A stretch of DNA of 42,235 bases from Subtercola lobariae (GTDB lineage Bacteria; Actinomycetota; Actinomycetes; Actinomycetales; Microbacteriaceae): positions 1 to 42,235 of the forward strand of contig NZ_BMGP01000009.1 of assembly GCF_014640255.1 (NCBI RefSeq), written 5' to 3'. The notes under the pieces were generated by a model. The model ran no database searches and was not told the origin of the DNA. It saw nothing but the letters and a program-made list of their open reading frames with translations. Position numbers and translations under genes: made by a program. This document shows positions 29,436 through 39,758 of this stretch, piece after piece (positions within the stretch are counted from its first letter, which is position 1; every line of letters begins with the position of its first letter).

Positions 29436-30221
29436 ATGAGCGACAACTACGATCTTCCCGCTGCGTTTTACCCGCCTGAAACCTCAACCCTCGACGCGCC
29501 GAGCGCCACCTTCGAGGGGTCGGCGTCGAACGACTCCGATGGAACCACCGACCTCGGCGAGACAGCGAAAGCAAAAGCTGAAACAGCCAGAGACCAGGCC
29601 GGTCAGCTCAAAGATCAGGCCGTAGCATCTGGAAGTCAGGTGGCTGGTGCGGCGAAAGACGCTGCTGGCGACGTGGTCGGTGAAGCCAAGACTCAGGTCA
29701 AAGACCTCTTCGGCCAGGCCGAAAGTGAACTGAAAGACCAGGCCCAGGTGCAGCAGAAGCGCATTGCGACCGGCCTCAGGGCAATTGCCGACGAACTCGG
29801 TGAGATGGTGAATGGGTCCACGTCTGGCGGAGTAGCGACCGACCTCGCGCAGCAGGCGGCGTCACGCGCCGGCAGTGCAGCGTCGTGGTTGGATGCCCGC
29901 GATCCCGGCACACTGCTTCGTGACGTGCGGGCCTACGCCGCTCGCAGGCCGGGCACCTTCATTGCGGTTGCCGCGATTGCCGGACTGGCCGCCGGCCGTT
30001 TGGCCAAGAATCTCGCGGGTGCGGCCGTAGACGAGAAAGCGGCCGAGGCGAGGGCGGCGACGCCAACCTATGACTCGACCGGCTACGCGACCACGATTCC
30101 CGCAACATCCGCTCCCCTGGTTTCGCCTGCTTCGGTCGATGAGCCGGTCTATCTCGGTGACGAGTTCGGCGGCGCGCCAGTCGACGAGCCGCTCTATGGT
30201 GCCGCTGGTGAGCGCGCATGA
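29436..30221 (+). CDS. Alanine-rich, LEA-like protein with one membrane helix, 261 aa
   Basis: The N-terminal half is an Ala/Lys/Glu/Gln-rich helical repeat (TAKAKAETARDQAGQLKDQAV, QVAGAAKDAAGDVVGEAK...) typical of LEA-like or YtxH/apolipoprotein-like stress proteins. Residues about 176-195 form a membrane helix (GTFIAVAAIAGLAAGRLA) and the C-terminal tail is acidic. GAAAGGA precedes the ATG. The gene overlaps the holin-X-type gene by ATGA and is the first of three coupled genes, a set found widely in actinobacteria next to envelope and desiccation functions. Role in membrane protection is inferred. Confidence 0.75.
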   Translation: MSDNYDLPAAFYPPETSTLDAPSATFEGSASNDSDGTTDLGETAKAKAETARDQAGQLKDQAVASGSQVAGAAKDAAGDVVGEAKTQVKDLFGQAESELKDQAQVQQKRIATGLRAIADELGEMVNGSTSGGVATDLAQQAASRAGSAASWLDARDPGTLLRDVRAYAARRPGTFIAVAAIAGLAAGRLAKNLAGAAVDEKAAEARAATPTYDSTGYATTIPATSAPLVSPASVDEPVYLGDEFGGAPVDEPLYGAAGERA

Positions 30222-30628
30222 CCGACACGCCCTCCGAGCAGAAAGCAGCAACCACCTCGCTCGGTGAACTGATCGGCGATGTCACCCGCGACCTTTCGAC
30301 GCTCATGCGCCAAGAAGTCGAGCTTGCCAAGGTCGAATTGAAAGATTCGGCAACCCGCGCGGGCAAGGGTGCTGGCCTGCTCGGCGGTGCGGGCTACGCG
30401 GGTTTCATGGCGATTCTGTTCATCTCCATCGCCGCCTGGTGGGGCCTGGGTTACCTGGTCGGCAACGGCTGGTCGGGCCTCATCGTCGCCGGAGTCTGGC
30501 TGATCATCGCCACGATTCTGTACCTCGTGGGCCGAAATGAGTTGAAGACCGTGCGCGGAGCTCCTCAGACTGTGAGCACCGTCAAAGAGATTCCTGAAAC
30601 CTTCAAACGAAATGAGCAGAACCGATGA
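30218..30628 (+). CDS. Phage holin family / actinobacterial holin-X-type protein, 136 aa
   Basis: The protein has SLGELIGDVTRDLSTLMRQEVELAKVEL at the N-terminus, the family's signature amphipathic helix, and two membrane helices (GGAGYAGFMAILFISIAAWWGLG and SGLIVAGVWLIIATILYLVGR) forming a hairpin. It is a chromosomal housekeeping member of Phage_holin_3_6, not evidence of a prophage. Overlaps of four bases with both neighbours fix its place in the three-gene operon. Confidence 0.88.
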   Translation: MTDTPSEQKAATTSLGELIGDVTRDLSTLMRQEVELAKVELKDSATRAGKGAGLLGGAGYAGFMAILFISIAAWWGLGYLVGNGWSGLIVAGVWLIIATILYLVGRNELKTVRGAPQTVSTVKEIPETFKRNEQNR

Positions 30629-31203
30629 GCGACAACCCGAACGAGATCCGCGCCAACATCGAGGCGACGAGATTCGAATTGAGCAATAACGTCGACGCGT
30701 TGGCTGACAAGGTCGACCCGTCGAAGATCGCCGAACGCCAAACCGAGAAGGTCAAAGGCGCCTTTCGCGGTGTTCGTGAGCGAGTGATGGGTGCGGTATC
30801 TGATGTCGGCGACAACGCAAGCGGAGTCGCGGGTTCGGCTACTGACTCGGTCTCGGGCGCAGCGCAGACCGCCAAAGACAAGGTGCAGGGCAGCCCCTTC
30901 GCGATCGGACTGATCGCGTTCGGCGCCGGTTTGCTCGCCGCGTCGTTGGTTCCCGCCAGCACGAAAGAGAAAGAGATCGCCTCGAACATCAAAGAGCAGG
31001 CGCAACCACTGGTCGAACAGGTAACGGATGCGGCCAAAGAAGTCGCAGGTAACTTGAAAGAACCGGCTCAAGAAGCCGCTGCCGCCGTCAAAGACACGGC
31101 GACCGATGCCGCCTCGAGCGTTCAGGCAGAAGCCCAGTCGGCCGTTTCAGATGTGCAAGACCAGGCCGGCGACGCCAAACACGCCCTGCAAAACGAGAAC
31201 TGA
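30625..31203 (+). CDS. DUF3618-containing membrane-stress protein, 192 aa
   Basis: Residues 5-50 (PNEIRANIEATRFELSNNVDALADKVDPSKIAER) are the DUF3618 signature. A membrane helix follows at about 92-112 (FAIGLIAFGAGLLAASLVP), and the C-terminal 80 residues are an Ala/Lys/Glu-rich helical repeat (QVTDAAKEVAGNLKEPAQEAAAAVKDTATDAASS) like that of the first gene of the operon. Starts with ATGA overlap on the holin-X gene. The function is unknown; the partner proteins suggest an envelope complex. Confidence 0.88.
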   Translation: MSDNPNEIRANIEATRFELSNNVDALADKVDPSKIAERQTEKVKGAFRGVRERVMGAVSDVGDNASGVAGSATDSVSGAAQTAKDKVQGSPFAIGLIAFGAGLLAASLVPASTKEKEIASNIKEQAQPLVEQVTDAAKEVAGNLKEPAQEAAAAVKDTATDAASSVQAEAQSAVSDVQDQAGDAKHALQNEN

Positions 31204-32797: not shown

Positions 32798-34297
32798 ATG
32801 TTTTTGTCGTTTCTGCTCGCGGTAAACCCGAACCCGGTACCTGATCCGCTTCTGACAGCGGTACCGATTCCCACCCCCAACCAGATCGAGTTGCCCAATC
32901 GGGGTGCGAATCTGATTGTGCCGTCGTCGGGGTCTCTGTCGAATTTCTACCCGCAGTGGTCGCCGGCTGAATGGATCGGCTATTCGGCGCTCATTGTGGT
33001 GTCGATATTGCTGACCGTCGTCGCCTGTACGACGCTGTGGTGGATGCTTCATGCCTGGCGTTCTCCGAAGGGCCTGAAAGATACGCAATTCTCTGAACAG
33101 CCTCGTGAACCGAGGCACTCGTTCACCCTTCTGGTGCCGGGCCGGCATGAAGAAGAGGTGCTCGGAGAGACACTCGACGTGCTCGCACGACAAGAGCATC
33201 CTGACTTCGAAATCATCGCCATCGTCGGCCATGACGACCCGGGAACAGAGGCCGTAGCGCGCGCCGCTGCCGCTCGTCACCCCGACATCATTCGGGTGAT
33301 CGTCGACGAAAGTGTGCCGAAGAACAAACCGAAGGCCTTGAACCTCGCGCTGAAGACAGCACGGGGCGATGTCGTTGGTGTTTTCGATGCAGAAGACGAA
33401 GTGCACCCGCGCCTGCTCACTGTCGTCGACTCGAAGTTTCAAGAATCGGGCGCTGACGTGGTGCAGGGCGGCGTTCAGCTGATGAACTTCAGAACGAGTT
33501 GGTGGGCGCTGCGAAATGTCTTGGAATACTATTTCTGGTTTCGCTCCCGATTGCACTTTCACGCGGCGTCGCGCTTCATTCCGCTGGGCGGAAACACGGT
33601 CTTCGTCAAAAAATCATGGCTTGATTGGTCTGACGGCTGGGATGCGGAGTGCTTGGCCGAAGACTGCGAACTCGGCGTGCGCCTCTCTAGCGCCGGCGCT
33701 CACGTCGTCGTCGCCTACAGCCCCGAATTCGTTACCCGTGAAGAGACTCCCGGCTCGTTGAAGTCGCTTTACAAACAGCGCACCCGCTGGAACCAAGGCT
33801 TTCTGCAGGTACTCCAAAAAGGGCATTGGCGTAACCTGCCGACATTTAAACAGCGTCTCTTTGCTCGGTACCTGCTCACGATGCCGTTCTTGCAAGCGGC
33901 GACCGGCATGCTCATTCCCATCTCGCTCTTTCTGATGTTCTTTTCGAAAGTGCCGACAATCGTCGCTCTGATCACGGTTGTGCCGCTTGTGCCAACCCTC
34001 ATCACGCTTGTGGTCGAGATGACCGGGCTCGCAGAATTCGGTCGGGCATATGGCCCGAAGGCACGTGCGGTCGACCACCTCAAGCTGGTGCTCGGACTGT
34101 TTCCGTTTCAGATCTTTCTCGCTCTCGCAGCCGTGCGCTCGGTGATTCGGCAGATGCGCGGCATCAACAGCTGGGAGAAGACCGAGCACACCGGCGCCCA
34201 CCGCCCTGACCCGTCGGTTGTCGCAGCAGCGCCTCGGGTACTCGTGTCAACGGGCGTTGTCGGCGACGCAGTGCTCGAGAAGGTGGAGAGCCGATAA
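32798..34297 (+). CDS. Cellulose-synthase-like GT2 polysaccharide synthase, 499 aa
   Basis: This is a processive-type membrane GT2 enzyme. A proline-rich N-terminus and a membrane helix (about 61-82) precede the GT domain: NKPKALNLALKTARGD (about 176-191), DAED (197-200), EDCELG (288-293) and the processivity motif Q-R-T-R-W (327-331). C-terminal helices follow (about 353-385 and 395-425, and one near 440-460). All D, D, D, QxxRW elements of cellulose/chitin/hyaluronan synthases are present. There is no PilZ domain, so direct control by cyclic di-GMP is not expected. GGAGAGG precedes the ATG. It is the first gene of the locus and probably makes its backbone polymer. Confidence 0.85.
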   Translation: MFLSFLLAVNPNPVPDPLLTAVPIPTPNQIELPNRGANLIVPSSGSLSNFYPQWSPAEWIGYSALIVVSILLTVVACTTLWWMLHAWRSPKGLKDTQFSEQPREPRHSFTLLVPGRHEEEVLGETLDVLARQEHPDFEIIAIVGHDDPGTEAVARAAAARHPDIIRVIVDESVPKNKPKALNLALKTARGDVVGVFDAEDEVHPRLLTVVDSKFQESGADVVQGGVQLMNFRTSWWALRNVLEYYFWFRSRLHFHAASRFIPLGGNTVFVKKSWLDWSDGWDAECLAEDCELGVRLSSAGAHVVVAYSPEFVTREETPGSLKSLYKQRTRWNQGFLQVLQKGHWRNLPTFKQRLFARYLLTMPFLQAATGMLIPISLFLMFFSKVPTIVALITVVPLVPTLITLVVEMTGLAEFGRAYGPKARAVDHLKLVLGLFPFQIFLALAAVRSVIRQMRGINSWEKTEHTGAHRPDPSVVAAAPRVLVSTGVVGDAVLEKVESR

Positions 34298-36318
34298 TGA
34301 CGACCACACTCGAGCCCATCAACTCAACAGAACCCATCGAAGAGTCTGTTTCGGCACAGTCAACCCCGCCAACGAGGCCGCGTCGCCCCGGCATCAGTCG
34401 ATGGTTTCGCCGAAGCCGTCGGTCTCTCGTTTGGCTACTACCTGCTTTAGTAGTCGGCATCGTTGCTCAAGTGGTGAACATCACGGGGGCGCCACAGCGT
34501 ATAGACGACGAGGGCACCTACACCGCTCAAGCCTGGGCTATCGACCGCTTAGGTTCACTCACGCACTACACGTATTGGTACGACCATCCACCCCTCGGCT
34601 GGATTCAGATCGCCCTCTACGCACGGCTGACGAATGCGTTCGGCCGATATGACTATGCAGTGTTCGCTGCCCGCGAGTTCATGGTCGTCGTCACGATGGT
34701 ATCGGCCGTGCTCTTGTGGATGCTCGCGCGCAAGCTTCGACTCGGCCGTGCTTCGGCGACCATTGCGGTGTTGCTCTTCACGGTCTCACCGCTCGCCTTG
34801 CAATTTCACCGCTCGGTGTATCTCGACAACATAGCGGCTATGTGGATGCTCGCAGCATTCGTTCTCGCCTTCGAAAAGCGTCACCAGCTCGCCAGTTTCG
34901 TCGGGAGCGCAGCCTGCTTCGGAATCGCCGTGCTCTCGAAAGAGACCTTCTTGCTAGCACTCCCGCTCTTAGCATGGCTGCTCTGGCGCAACGCGCACCC
35001 CTCGACGAGGCGGTACACGCTCGCCGTTGCCGCGACAGTGCTAATCGTGCTCGGAGCCGCCTACGTTCTGCTCGCAGCGGTCAAAGGCGAAGTGTTCCCC
35101 GCCGCAAACAGGGTGAGTTTGTTCAACGGCCTCACCTTCCAACTCTCATCGCGTGCATCGAGCGGCTCGATCACTGACCCCACAAGCCTCATCAATAAAA
35201 CCTTCTCCATGTGGTGGCAGCTTGACCCCGTGGGTATCGTCGGCGCAGTCTGCGCCGGACTCGGCGCGCTCTTCATCAAGCGACTACGGGCTTTCGCAAT
35301 CATGTTCTTAGTGCTGGTCGCTTTCATGTTCCGGCCGGGAGGGTACCTTCCCGTGCCCTACGTGATCATCTTGCTGCCGTTCGGCGCCCTGCTGATCGGC
35401 GCGGTGATCGATTCGGCTGCCCGGGTCGTGTACCGCAAAAAGCCCGCAACATCGCGCCGGCGCCTGTTCGGTGCCCTTGTGGTGCTGATGTCGCTCGTCG
35501 CCGCCACGATCGCCGGGCCGCTGTGGGTCGCTCAACTCCGTGGGTTCTTCAGTGCCGATCTTGACGCTCCGATGCGCCAGGCCGAAGCGTATACCGAGGC
35601 CAACGTGCCCCACGATGCCCGGCTGATCGTCGATGACTCGATGTGGGTCGACCTGGTGACCGCCGGATTCGCCCGCGACAACGTCACCTGGTATTACAAG
35701 GTCGACACTGACCCTGCAGTGGAGGCGCTCTCACCAAACGGCTGGCGCGACTCCGACTACATCATCACCACAGACTCGATGAGGTCACTTCTCAGTACCT
35801 CGCCCGACGTCAACGATGCCGTGCAGAACTCGGTCGTCGTGGCGAGTTTCGGTCAGGGCGACGCACTGGTCGAGGTTCGGCAGATCGAGCCGCAAGGGGC
35901 CACTCAGGCACAAGCCGACGCTACGGCGAGCACCAAGGCCCGAGCATCCGCCGGCGCCCAACTCGCCGAAAACGCCAACCTTACGATGCCGCTCGCCACG
36001 CGTGATCTGCTCACCGGCGGTCAAGTGGATGCTCGGGTCATTCTCACTCTCAGCGAGTTGCTTTCGACCTCGACAGTAACGGTCGGTGACTATCCACTCG
36101 TCGACGGCGAAGGAGACGACACCAGAAGGCAGATCCTGATCACCAGCCTGAACGGCGACCAGATCTCCAGTAACCCAGCTGCCGCGGCTGCAGCCCAAGC
36201 CTACTTTCAGGGCCTCACCGGCATGGTGAAACCGGCGCAAATCAGCCTGACACCAGCAGGGCTCCTCGTCACATTCGCGCTCGGCGAACCATCGGGCCTT
36301 CTCACACCCACGCCCTGA
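34297..36318 (+). CDS. GT39/PMT-like membrane glycosyltransferase, 673 aa
   Basis: This is a polytopic GT-C enzyme that uses polyprenyl-phosphate sugars. After a basic N-terminal tail, the first periplasmic loop carries the DDEGTYTAQAW acidic motif, and YDHPPLGW follows; these are GT39/ArnT-type signatures. About nine to eleven membrane helices follow, and a soluble C-terminal domain of about 230 residues (from about 420) begins APMRQAEAYTEANVPHDARLIVDD. ATG overlaps the upstream TAA by one base (TAATG), so it is coupled to the synthase. The lipid donor is probably supplied by the DPM1-like enzyme at 38967. It may glycosylate the polymer or an outer protein. Confidence 0.85.
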   Translation: MTTTLEPINSTEPIEESVSAQSTPPTRPRRPGISRWFRRSRRSLVWLLPALVVGIVAQVVNITGAPQRIDDEGTYTAQAWAIDRLGSLTHYTYWYDHPPLGWIQIALYARLTNAFGRYDYAVFAAREFMVVVTMVSAVLLWMLARKLRLGRASATIAVLLFTVSPLALQFHRSVYLDNIAAMWMLAAFVLAFEKRHQLASFVGSAACFGIAVLSKETFLLALPLLAWLLWRNAHPSTRRYTLAVAATVLIVLGAAYVLLAAVKGEVFPAANRVSLFNGLTFQLSSRASSGSITDPTSLINKTFSMWWQLDPVGIVGAVCAGLGALFIKRLRAFAIMFLVLVAFMFRPGGYLPVPYVIILLPFGALLIGAVIDSAARVVYRKKPATSRRRLFGALVVLMSLVAATIAGPLWVAQLRGFFSADLDAPMRQAEAYTEANVPHDARLIVDDSMWVDLVTAGFARDNVTWYYKVDTDPAVEALSPNGWRDSDYIITTDSMRSLLSTSPDVNDAVQNSVVVASFGQGDALVEVRQIEPQGATQAQADATASTKARASAGAQLAENANLTMPLATRDLLTGGQVDARVILTLSELLSTSTVTVGDYPLVDGEGDDTRRQILITSLNGDQISSNPAAAAAAQAYFQGLTGMVKPAQISLTPAGLLVTFALGEPSGLLTPTP

Positions 36319-36402
36319 CCTCGCACGTCAGGTGATCAGAGCGCGCCGACGTGCGTGCACCCCAGACACACCATCACCCAACTATCGAAAAGGATCACGC
36401 TC

Positions 36403-37317
36403 ATGTCTTCGCACACCCAATCGCTCTCGTACCGTCTGTCGAACCGCCGGCCTGCCGGCCTCGCCGCTCTCGCCGCTCTCGTTGCGACCATCGCGTTCGC
36501 TATCTTCGGACTCAATAGCAGCGCGATGGCAGCCGACGCGCCAACCGCCGGCGGCTGGATACGTATCGCCCACCTCTCACCTGACACGAAAGCGGTCGAC
36601 GTCACACTGACCGCCCTCGCAGGCGGCGCAAAGGTGTACGAACTCGATGATCTCGCGTACGGCGCGGTCTCCGCCTACGTCGCAATGTCTCAGGGCACCT
36701 ACGTCGTCGCGATGGTACCGACCGGTTCACCGGCAAACACGCCGGCCATGATCCAGCAATCGATCAATGTCGTCAGCGGGCAGCCGATGACCGTTGCGGC
36801 ACTGGGTAAGAACTCCGACCTGAAGACCGTCGTTTTTCCCGATGACCTCACACCACCAGCTGCCGGGCAGGCGCGAGTCAGGGTTATTCAGGCATCGACC
36901 GACGTTTCGTCAGTGAGCATTGCGACAAGCACCGGCCAGCCCGTCACAGCAGACGCCAAACAAGGCACCGCGACCGGCTACGCCAGCGTGCCGGCAGGAA
37001 CCTGGAACCTAGACCTCACCGGGGCCGCATCACCCGCTACTGCCTCAGTCACCCTCGCCTCAGGCGCGGTCGCAACCCTTTTCGTGCTCGATAACTCGAC
37101 CGGCGGAGTCACCATCAAACCCGTCATCGACTCGGCCAGCGTCGGAGCTACGCCAGTGGGTGGCATTCAAACCGGCGGCGGATTTCTCGCGCACCACATC
37201 AACGCAGCACCTTCCGCCGACAGCGTGCTCCTCGGCGTGACCATCGCTCTGGCGGCGGCGCTGCTCATCGCCCTCGGTGTACTCAGCGCCGCCCGTCGAC
37301 GGGAGAGCACCCGGTGA
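36403..37317 (+). CDS. Secreted DUF4397 protein with C-terminal membrane anchor, 304 aa
   Basis: A Sec signal peptide (about residues 10-44, ending SSAMA) is followed by a DUF4397 domain (GWIRIAHLSPDTKAVDVTLTA, YGAVSAYVAMSQGTYVV...), a beta-rich fold repeated in the second half (RVRVIQASTDVSSVSIAT). The C-terminus is a membrane helix (VLLGVTIALAAALLIALGVLSA) with the basic tail ARRRESTR, like sortase substrates but without a clear LPxTG before it. ATG 36403 has AAAAGGA at the right distance; the upstream frame does not. Its stop overlaps the next start by GTGA. In actinobacteria such proteins are often paired with a class F sortase, here fused downstream. Confidence 0.85.
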   Translation: MSSHTQSLSYRLSNRRPAGLAALAALVATIAFAIFGLNSSAMAADAPTAGGWIRIAHLSPDTKAVDVTLTALAGGAKVYELDDLAYGAVSAYVAMSQGTYVVAMVPTGSPANTPAMIQQSINVVSGQPMTVAALGKNSDLKTVVFPDDLTPPAAGQARVRVIQASTDVSSVSIATSTGQPVTADAKQGTATGYASVPAGTWNLDLTGAASPATASVTLASGAVATLFVLDNSTGGVTIKPVIDSASVGATPVGGIQTGGGFLAHHINAAPSADSVLLGVTIALAAALLIALGVLSAARRRESTR

Positions 37318-38933
37318 ACGCCCTCAGACATTCGTGCGCGGGTTTCATCGCCCTGGCTATCGCGGCTTCGCTTTTCGCGTGCACGTCTTCGCCCACCACA
37401 CCGGCGTCACCGTCTGGGCCTGCGCAGGCTCGCACTGCCGACGACGCTGCCCGAGCGTTTCTGTCGAACTACGTCGTCGACGGCCGCGTCGTCAGAAAAG
37501 ACCAAGGGTCAGACACCGTCAGCGAAGGGCAGGCCTACGGAATGCTCATCGCCGTCTCGATCGGAGACGAGAACGCCTTCGATTCGATTTACGCCTGGAC
37601 GACAGCCAATCTCGTGCAGACCGACGGGCTGATGGCGTGGGACTGGAAAGACGGAAAAATCATCGACAACGAACCGGCCAGTGACGCCGATCTTGACGCT
37701 GCGAGAGCTCTCGTCGAAGCCGGAAAGACGTTCAACGAACCCGACCTCATCGCGAAAGGCAACGCATTGGGTGAAGTCATTCTCGACAAGCTCACCGTCA
37801 CTACCGCCGCCGGCCGCATCCTGCTTCCCGGGCTGTGGGCGGCGACGAGCGAGCCGTATGCCTACAACCCCTCATACGCATCTCCGGCCGCTTTCAGCGT
37901 TCTGTCGGAGAGTTCGGGCGATGCGCGATGGCAAGAGCTCGCCAGCGGATCTCGCGCGGTGACCTCGGCATTACTGACAAAGAGTGGGCTGCCCCCCGAT
38001 TGGGCGCAGGTGCACGCCGACGGCACCGTCGATTCAATGCCCGGCGCACGCGGTACCGGAACAACGGTTCAGTACTCGTATGACGCGGCTCGGCTACCGC
38101 TGCGTTATGCGGAGTCATGCGACCCAGCAGACACCGCGCTAGCCGCAAAGCTCATTTCGGCCTTGCAACGTCAAAGCGATGTCTTCGCCCAACTCGATCT
38201 GGGCGGCGGAGCGCTGACCACCGATCAGAGCTCGGTGGGATACGACGCCCGAGCCGCCGCACTCGCAGCAGCGGGGCAGGCCAACCTGGCTGAACAAGAT
38301 CTCAGCAGGGCCGATCAACTCGAACAGTCCAATTCAACGTATTACGGCGCAGCGTGGAGCGCCCTTGCCCAGCAAGAACTTCAAGCGGGCACCCTCGGCT
38401 CCTGCGCGCCTCTGCATCAGGCGAGCGGTGCTGCCAACGCGATGCAAGACCCAGCTGCGCAGCAGACAAGTACGAGCGAACAGCTGGCTGGAGTCGTACC
38501 AACCCATCTGCAGATCGCGCAAATCGGAGTCGACACCTCGCTCGAAGCCCTGACAAAAGACGCGTCCGGCGAAATCGTGCCTCCGCAGAGCTTCAGCGAC
38601 GCGGGATGGTACAAAGATGGCGTCGTGCCCGGCGACCTCGGCCCAGCCGTGATCGCCGGGCACATTGATTCTGCAACCGGCCCCGCGATCTTCGATCAGC
38701 TCGCGACTCTGAAACCGGGTGCCGTGATCGATGTCACCCTCTCCGATAACAGCACGGTCTCATTCGTCGTCGACTCGACGATCACTGTACCCAAACAGCA
38801 GTTTCCGACCACCCAGGTCTACGGACCGACGCCGACAGCCCAACTCCGAGTGATCACCTGCGGCGGGGCTTTCGACGATTCTTACGGGCACTATCTCGAC
38901 AACGTGGTCGTTTTCGCCCACAAATCCGCCTGA
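37314..38933 (+). CDS. Lipoprotein fusion of a GH8 glucanase domain and a class F sortase, 539 aa
   Basis: A lipobox (LFAC, Cys23) predicts a membrane lipoprotein. Residues about 40-350 are a glycoside hydrolase family 8 domain. SEGQAYGM has the proton donor Glu71, SDADLD has the conserved Asp at about 126, and QYSYDAARLPLRYA has Asp257. Residues about 385-539 are a class F sortase: HLQIAQIGVDTSL, VIAGHIDSATGPAIFDQL (His450), LRVITCGGAFD (Cys516) and HYLDNVVVFA. At the place where many class F sortases have Arg (12 residues after Cys) I read Leu528. GTG 37314 overlaps the DUF4397 stop and has GGGAGAG upstream. The two halves are continuous in one frame with no stop, so fusion is real unless the assembly is wrong. 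Confidence 0.85.
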   Translation: MNALRHSCAGFIALAIAASLFACTSSPTTPASPSGPAQARTADDAARAFLSNYVVDGRVVRKDQGSDTVSEGQAYGMLIAVSIGDENAFDSIYAWTTANLVQTDGLMAWDWKDGKIIDNEPASDADLDAARALVEAGKTFNEPDLIAKGNALGEVILDKLTVTTAAGRILLPGLWAATSEPYAYNPSYASPAAFSVLSESSGDARWQELASGSRAVTSALLTKSGLPPDWAQVHADGTVDSMPGARGTGTTVQYSYDAARLPLRYAESCDPADTALAAKLISALQRQSDVFAQLDLGGGALTTDQSSVGYDARAAALAAAGQANLAEQDLSRADQLEQSNSTYYGAAWSALAQQELQAGTLGSCAPLHQASGAANAMQDPAAQQTSTSEQLAGVVPTHLQIAQIGVDTSLEALTKDASGEIVPPQSFSDAGWYKDGVVPGDLGPAVIAGHIDSATGPAIFDQLATLKPGAVIDVTLSDNSTVSFVVDSTITVPKQQFPTTQVYGPTPTAQLRVITCGGAFDDSYGHYLDNVVVFAHKSA

Positions 38934-38966: not shown

Positions 38967-39758
38967 ATGAATGAAGCGTTAGTGATCATCCCGACGTACA
39001 ACGAAAAAGAAAATATCTCGTCCATCGTCGCGCGAGTGCTGACCACCCGTCGCGCCGATGTTCTCATTGTTGACGATGGCTCGCCTGACGGCACCGGCGA
39101 AATCGCCGATCACCTTGCCCGTCTCTACGAAGAGGTTTCGGTTCTGCACCGCCCAGGCAAACAAGGCCTTGGCCGAGCGTATGTCGCAGGCTTCGACTGG
39201 GGCCGCGCTCGCGGCTACAAAGCACTGGTCGAAATGGATGCTGACGGCTCGCACCACCCCGAATCGTTGCCGCTCATGCTCGACATGCTCGATGACGACA
39301 CCATCGACATCGTTCTCGGCTCGAGGTGGGTGCAGGGCGGCGTCGTCGTCAATTGGCCGCTGAGACGCCGACTACTCAGCCGCGGCGGAAACGCATACGC
39401 TCGCATCGCACTCGGCATCTCGATCAAAGATGCCACCGGAGGGTACCGGGTGTACCGCCGCAGCGCGATCGAACGCATTCGCTTGACGACCATCGAATCC
39501 GACGGGTACTGCTTTCAACTCGACATGCTCTGGCGAGGGCTTCAAACCGGTCTCCGCGTCGTTGAAGTACCCATCATCTTCACCGAACGAACTCATGGCA
39601 CATCAAAAATGAGCGGAATGATCGTCGCTGAATCACTCATGCGAGTCACCCGATGGGGTCTTCAACGCCGAGCACAATCTGTAACAGAACTAGTGCTGCA
39701 CCGCCGGCGCCTCCCCTCCGTTCGCACCGTCAATCGCACACAAGCACCGAGCCGATGA
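38967..39758 (+). CDS. DPM1/Ppm1-like polyprenol-phosphate sugar synthase, 263 aa
   Basis: This is a GT2 enzyme that loads a sugar, usually mannose, from a nucleotide onto polyprenyl phosphate. VIIPTYNEKENI, VDDGSPDGTG (35-44), MDADGSHHPE (90-99), LGSRWVQGG and DATGGYRVYRR are all present, the full DPM1 pattern. The C-terminus (EVPIIFTERTHGTSKMS...RVTRWGLQRR) is standard, with no membrane domain, so it is a soluble peripheral type. AAAGGAG precedes the ATG. Next to a GT39-type enzyme it makes sense as its donor synthase. Its stop overlaps the next small gene by ATGA. Confidence 0.9.
   Translation: MNEALVIIPTYNEKENISSIVARVLTTRRADVLIVDDGSPDGTGEIADHLARLYEEVSVLHRPGKQGLGRAYVAGFDWGRARGYKALVEMDADGSHHPESLPLMLDMLDDDTIDIVLGSRWVQGGVVVNWPLRRRLLSRGGNAYARIALGISIKDATGGYRVYRRSAIERIRLTTIESDGYCFQLDMLWRGLQTGLRVVEVPIIFTERTHGTSKMSGMIVAESLMRVTRWGLQRRAQSVTELVLHRRRLPSVRTVNRTQAPSR

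Follow-up and report, generated by a model that had tools for sequence, protein, structure and literature searches.

The window analysed here is a stretch of 42,235 nucleotides of Subtercola lobariae (positions 1 to 42,235 of contig NZ_BMGP01000009.1, assembly GCF_014640255.1). It carries a forward-strand gene cluster in the order GT2 synthase, PMT-like transferase, DUF4397 protein, GH8, class F sortase and DPM1-like GT2, in which GH8 and sortase are encoded by one gene. The first gene (32798..34297, +) encodes a membrane GT2 with DAED, ED and QRTRW motifs (Pfam Glyco_tranf_2_3, 6e-43) and is a probable polysaccharide synthase. It scored 27.1 bits against the BcsA model (TIGR03030), where the cut-off is 699.1, so that the locus does not classify as a cellulose synthase operon, and it was also far under the PgaC cut-off; a glucan as the polymer is therefore a guess. 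The second gene (34297..36318, +) encodes a PMT-like, GT39-type membrane glycosyltransferase at a conserved position (Pfam PMT_2, 3.1e-10), and the third (36355..37317, +; GTG start, in-frame ATG at 36403) a DUF4397 protein (Pfam, 2.8e-32), which its structural model and its adjacency to the sortase make a candidate substrate. Downstream of the fused gene lies a DPM1-like GT2 (38967..39758, +; Pfam Glycos_transf_2, 2.2e-33), probably a polyprenyl-phosphate sugar synthase, for which the nearest NCBIfam model, PpgS, gave 79.7 bits against a cut-off of 370. Upstream of the cluster, Holin-X-like and DUF3618 genes are found in tandem (30218-31200).

The fused gene (37314..38933, +), identified from its open reading frame, Pfam and NCBIfam matches and homologues, starts with GTG and overlaps the stop of the DUF4397 gene by 4 nt. 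An earlier, sequence-only reading had described one continuous frame joining a lipobox, a GH8 glucanase and a class F sortase, and the frame is indeed a single unbroken one of 539 amino acids. As the lipobox, LFAC with Cys23 (37371..37382, +) can be read by eye in the translation, but Phe in the second place is unusual and the motif was rejected by the regular expression used for the homologues. LAGC is found in the closest fused homologue, that of S. vilae (L064), and the protein is probably lipid-anchored. Residues 45-349 (37446..38360, +) matched Glyco_hydro_8 well above the family threshold (E 5.7e-41; 141.1 bits, cut-off 24). The three acids previously pointed out read as E71, D126 (or D124) and D257; they aligned to 1wzz and were invariant in all 81 sequences (window plus 80 loci), and by CelA and BcsZ we take them to be the catalytic acid, the base and a substrate-binding Asp. 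Residues 401-537 (38514..38924, +) fell inside the sortase family by profile search (Pfam Sortase, E 1.5e-18, 67.2 bits, cut-off 26.6) and, narrowly, inside class F (NCBIfam NF033748, 169.3 bits against 166).

The AlphaFold2 model of the fused protein (mean pLDDT 89.6, pTM 0.70) showed two well-folded domains joined by a linker that is weak at residues 374-389, and Foldseek with this model recovered GH8 structures, the best at E 3.6e-17, as well as sortases, among them 5k9a at E 2e-8. The first domain has the GH8 (alpha/alpha)6 fold, with CMCax, CelA and BcsZ among its matches. It resembles BcsZ and CMCax in fold, in catalytic acids and in the position of the gene beside a membrane GT2, but its 140.3 bits against the BcsZ equivalog model (NF008305) are below the cut-off of 299 and, unlike BcsZ/CMCax operons, the window locus lacks a BcsA-type synthase and has its GH8 fused to a sortase. 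The second domain resembles class F sortases in its score just over the NF033748 cut-off, in its His and Cys, and in an Asn at the position of the SrtA Arg, as described in the available text of PMC6998099; it differs in being the C-terminal part of a GH8 protein and in having no signal or anchor of its own. Each domain thus belongs to a known family, while their combination in a single protein is a new architecture; the literature searched, which covered few subscription papers, yielded no GH8-sortase protein.

The distribution of the fusion was determined in several genome samples. In the family sample of 299 genomes, full-length matches were present in two, the window's own and another of the same genus (G090, 66% identity), and in the genus 2 of 12 genomes had such a match; 29 other family genomes had a GH8 match of 51-61% identity, with the sortase part absent among the matches listed. 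In the order sample, any match to the GH8 profile was confined to 20 of 297 genomes. Among named genomes, 205 relatives were confirmed, and the best 80 by score comprised 22 one-frame fusions, 52 loci with separate nearby genes and six without such a sortase within 4 kb; since this ranking favours fused proteins, the 22 of 80 should not be read as a frequency. The domain matches were less than 450 nt apart in 51 of the 52 split loci, the remaining one (L108) having a DPM1-like gene between them. The fusion first read from one genome is shared by S. vilae, one Herbiconiux MAG and 20 Microbacterium-type records, the last forming one tree cluster. More usually, the two domains are encoded by separate genes that lie side by side. 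The trees placed the fused proteins in two clusters, and a single cluster was not rejected.

Anchors, called by a lipobox regular expression and a hydropathy window, were distributed differently in split and fused loci. None of the 52 split GH8 genes had a lipobox (40 had a TM-like stretch and 12 neither), and the split sortases carried their own lipobox (19/52) or TM helix (33/52). In the fused homologues, a lipobox at the GH8 end was called in 20 of 22, the exceptions being L065, which reads VAGC where its contig is cut off, and L068, with none. The Subtercola and Herbiconiux fusions retain a spacer ending in QDP, like the spacer of split sortases, while the split-sortase signal is absent. 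Taken together, the signals of split sortases, the lipobox of fused GH8 and the retained spacer suggest that the sortase lost its own anchor and came to rely on that of GH8. This agrees with the earlier suggestion that the enzyme domain takes the place of the usual sortase anchor, as the sortase of the fusion has no signal and is served by the one at the GH8 end.

Gene context was strongly conserved. The order GT2-PMT-DUF4397-GH8-sortase was kept in 19 of 20 chosen family loci (L053 was rearranged), with the DPM1-like gene next after the sortase in 14 of the 19 colinear ones; in one of the family genomes (G285, L048:9554-10335) the DPM1-like match lies in two frames, a possible frameshift. The same order was found in 69 of the best 80 named loci, and of the 11 non-conforming loci, four are truncated at contig ends, one has GH8 and sortase separated by the DPM1-like gene, and the other six are those lacking the sortase. 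Among the latter, a Blastococcus locus (L118) has GT2, PMT-like, GH8 and DPM1-like genes with both DUF4397 and sortase absent. Conversely, the window's genome contains a second DUF4397-sortase pair (L144:8325-9910 in G000:C2, - strand) whose frames overlap by 4 nt, and no GH8 or glycosyltransferase genes occurred beside it in the scanned flanking frames. As judged from gene content, the fused protein physically links two modules, GT2-PMT-GH8-DPM1 and DUF4397-sortase. The conserved cluster looks built to produce a surface polysaccharide and to fix a partner protein to the cell, and a natural fusion of genes that are neighbours elsewhere is a strong hint that trimming and anchoring act on one assembly. 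The coupling of glycan trimming to covalent attachment, proposed earlier from the single protein, is plausible and is strengthened by this neighbourhood.

The explanation that we favour, by a little over even chances for the whole of it, is that the fused protein arose when two adjacent genes of a locus for a surface polysaccharide merged, that its GH8 domain trims a beta-glycan and that its sortase anchors the DUF4397 partner, as in the Listeria Pss system. The GT2 would make and extrude a beta-linked polymer, and the GH8 domain, tethered through Cys23 to the outer face of the membrane, would trim it, as BcsZ does for cellulose, to go by its family and context. The DUF4397 protein would be exported and retained by its C-terminal helix until Cys516 of the sortase attacks the T|G bond in GIQTGGG and transfers the protein to an amine, in all likelihood that of a peptidoglycan precursor. 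Once anchored, the protein would keep the polymer from leaving the cell, and owing to the fusion trimming and anchoring would take place at a single site. Either the polymer or the DUF4397 protein is probably decorated by the PMT-like and DPM1-like enzymes. The occurrence of both fusions and separate nearby genes (22 and 52 of 80, respectively) and the conserved order of separable modules argue for this reading, as do the invariant active-site residues, while the lipobox of one of the six GH8 genes with no sortase nearby (L118) and the GT2 scores far under the BcsA and PgaC cut-offs argue against it.

The Listeria precedent also speaks for trimming plus anchoring. According to the available part of PMC11439720, PssZ hydrolyses Pss, and deletion of srtA detaches Pss from the cell, which is ascribed to a sortase-anchored lectin. 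The two systems differ in that PssZ is filed under GH126 (in the accessible text of PMC7479077) and the window enzyme is a GH8, and in that the portions of these sources at hand describe no fusion for Pss; SrtA also anchors most surface proteins in Listeria, and the Pss lectin is a putative one.

The tail of the DUF4397 protein was then compared with sorting signals. It reads PVGGIQTGGG, a spacer, a TM helix (residues 288-319, 37216..37311, +; AlphaFold2 model and translation) and ARRRESTR, and GIQTGGG (37162..37182, +) was singled out by pattern search and conservation as a candidate class F sorting motif. There is no LPXTG pentapeptide, GIQTGGG standing in its stead, but the TG dipeptide followed by a hydrophobic helix and a basic tail is that of an LPXTG-like signal. 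[VI]xTGGG was present near the C-terminus in 70 of 73 loci, the three misses being from Arthrobacter, two of them reading GGTNTG, and in an alignment of 29 sequences T273 and G274 were invariant, while after G276 no position reached 90%. The second DUF4397 protein of the genome (G000:C2) has GIQTGGG too, but with a short non-hydrophobic tail and no TM helix. The DNA pattern of the motif occurred at six places in the window's own genome, compared to one for a backward control; these were the two DUF4397 genes, three short or unlikely frames, and one site (L210) in an open frame of 367 aa, 12 residues from its end. Conservation of the motif, adjacency to the sortase and its presence in both DUF4397 copies of the genome favour the trimming-plus-anchoring reading.

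The TM tail followed the fusion, being present in 21 of the 21 fused loci with a DUF4397 gene and in 7 of 52 split loci, a match that goes back to one or two origins (at most two independent comparisons on the tree) and is not independent evidence. In the other 45 of the 52 split loci, what follows the motif was short and non-hydrophobic, unlike LPXTG signals, as it was in the second DUF4397 protein of the window's genome, and this departure from a normal sorting signal argues against the favoured reading. These short tails would belong either to soluble substrates for the sortase or to proteins that use the motif in another way.

An unlikely alternative is that the fusion merely secures equal dosage of two unrelated extracytoplasmic enzymes, the sortase serving proteins other than DUF4397. 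This was weighed with a phylum sample of 149 genomes, in which adjacency was counted by hand among the matches listed. At least 34 DUF4397 genes were found, 17 of which lay on the same strand as a class F sortase match and no more than 1 kb from it; when only genomes with a class F match of E < 1e-15 are counted, this was so for 17 of 20, again among the matches listed. This adjacency, its recurrence in the GH8-less second copy of the window's own genome, the T-G invariant in 29 of 29 sequences and a single open frame of G345 that holds both a DUF4397 and a sortase match all speak against the dosage explanation. The last case (L188, G345:C355) is a 616-aa frame, which is either a substrate-enzyme fusion or a gene pair without a stop. 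In favour of that explanation, there are also class F sortases with no DUF4397 gene nearby, and several per genome, among the matches listed. Tails could be read in 12 of the 17 sortase-adjacent DUF4397 proteins (two from the window's own genome) and in 14 of the 17 others. Of the 12 adjacent ones, 11 showed by eye a TM helix and basic tail; xTG[GA]G occurred in only six, two of them from the own genome, which supports the dosage explanation and counts against trimming plus anchoring. By comparison, three of the 14 non-adjacent proteins end in IPDTGG, MPDTGG or LPDTGG followed by a TM helix and basic tail, and such LPXTG-like ends away from class F sortases favour trimming plus anchoring. These three (L181, L182 and L183, from G356, G329 and G433) belong to genomes in which the class F model matched only weakly. 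At least some members of the DUF4397 family thus resemble sortase substrates, and the conserved [VI]xTGGG end together with the adjacency indicates that the DUF4397 neighbour in the window is likely the substrate of its sortase.

Rather improbable is a second alternative, in which the sortase is mainly a releasing peptidase and both domains shed the polymer and its binding protein. H450 and C516, named in the earlier reading, were invariant in 75 of 75 sequences (window plus 74 loci), but the textbook Arg is replaced: the beta8 position matched by motif to SrtA Arg197 is Asn (N530, codon 38901-38903) in all 75. This lack of a catalytic beta8 Arg, like the short tails of the split loci, suits a releasing enzyme and weakens the favoured reading. 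The replacement of Arg by Asn in class F sortases is already in print in the available text of PMC6998099, and the part of PMC8361268 at hand states a His-Cys-Arg triad for all native sortases. Against release, an Arg four residues before the Cys on beta7 (R512, codon 38847-38849, context LRLITC) was invariant in the same 75 sequences. In a phylum set of 31 sequences, consisting of the window and the best per genome from 30 others (L149-L178), beta8 had Asn in 28, among them each of the 22 that passed the class F cut-off, and Arg in three; the beta7 Arg was present in 23, which are the window and these 22. The eight sequences below the cut-off all lacked the beta7 Arg: three had beta8 Arg with beta7 Thr, and five had neither Arg. 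The alternation of beta8-Arg/beta7-Thr with beta8-Asn/beta7-Arg looks as if the catalytic Arg had moved between strands. From these alignments, R512 may take over from the usual sortase Arg, and the beta8 Asn is a mark of class F and not of the window protein alone.

A third alternative, to which we give little credence, is that the sortase links DUF4397 subunits into a pilus-like polymer instead of to the wall, with GH8 clearing the exit site of the fibre. It is consistent with the AlphaFold2 model of the DUF4397 protein, which showed two tandem transthyretin-like beta-sandwich domains, and with Lys79, present in at least 90% of 28 aligned sequences. However, L120, L126 and the second DUF4397 protein of the window's genome (L144) have another residue in place of this Lys, and each locus has one small substrate gene.

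GH8 includes chitosanases, which would allow a variant in which the fused protein is a glycan-protein ligase, GH8 cutting an amine-bearing polymer and the adjacent sortase joining the DUF4397 acyl group covalently to the fresh polymer, which we hold to be very unlikely. Class F sortases in general are common among actinobacteria; the available portions of PMC13251363 and PMC6998099 state their role as unknown, and the latter describes biosynthetic gene clusters that contain class F genes. The quadruple class F deletion in Actinoplanes, which caused no phenotypic change according to the accessible text of PMC13251363, argues against trimming plus anchoring. With a partner protein dedicated to the sortase, GG[VI]xTGGG as a candidate motif and a setting in which a polysaccharide would be produced, trimmed and retained at the surface, the locus described here makes class F function testable. 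The motif recognised by the enzyme could also be a new one for sortases; a class F locus with a GIQTGGG-type motif was not found in the literature searched, which covered few subscription papers.

Finally, chance read-through or an assembly error is virtually excluded: beyond the window being one draft contig, nothing was found in its favour, and it is refuted by the 22 fused public records with conserved active sites, 20 of them with a lipobox by regular expression. Two of the named loci, L108 (titled Planococcus sp. APC 4015) and L134 (a Spirosoma MAG), are actinobacteria-like and likely misnamed or contaminated.
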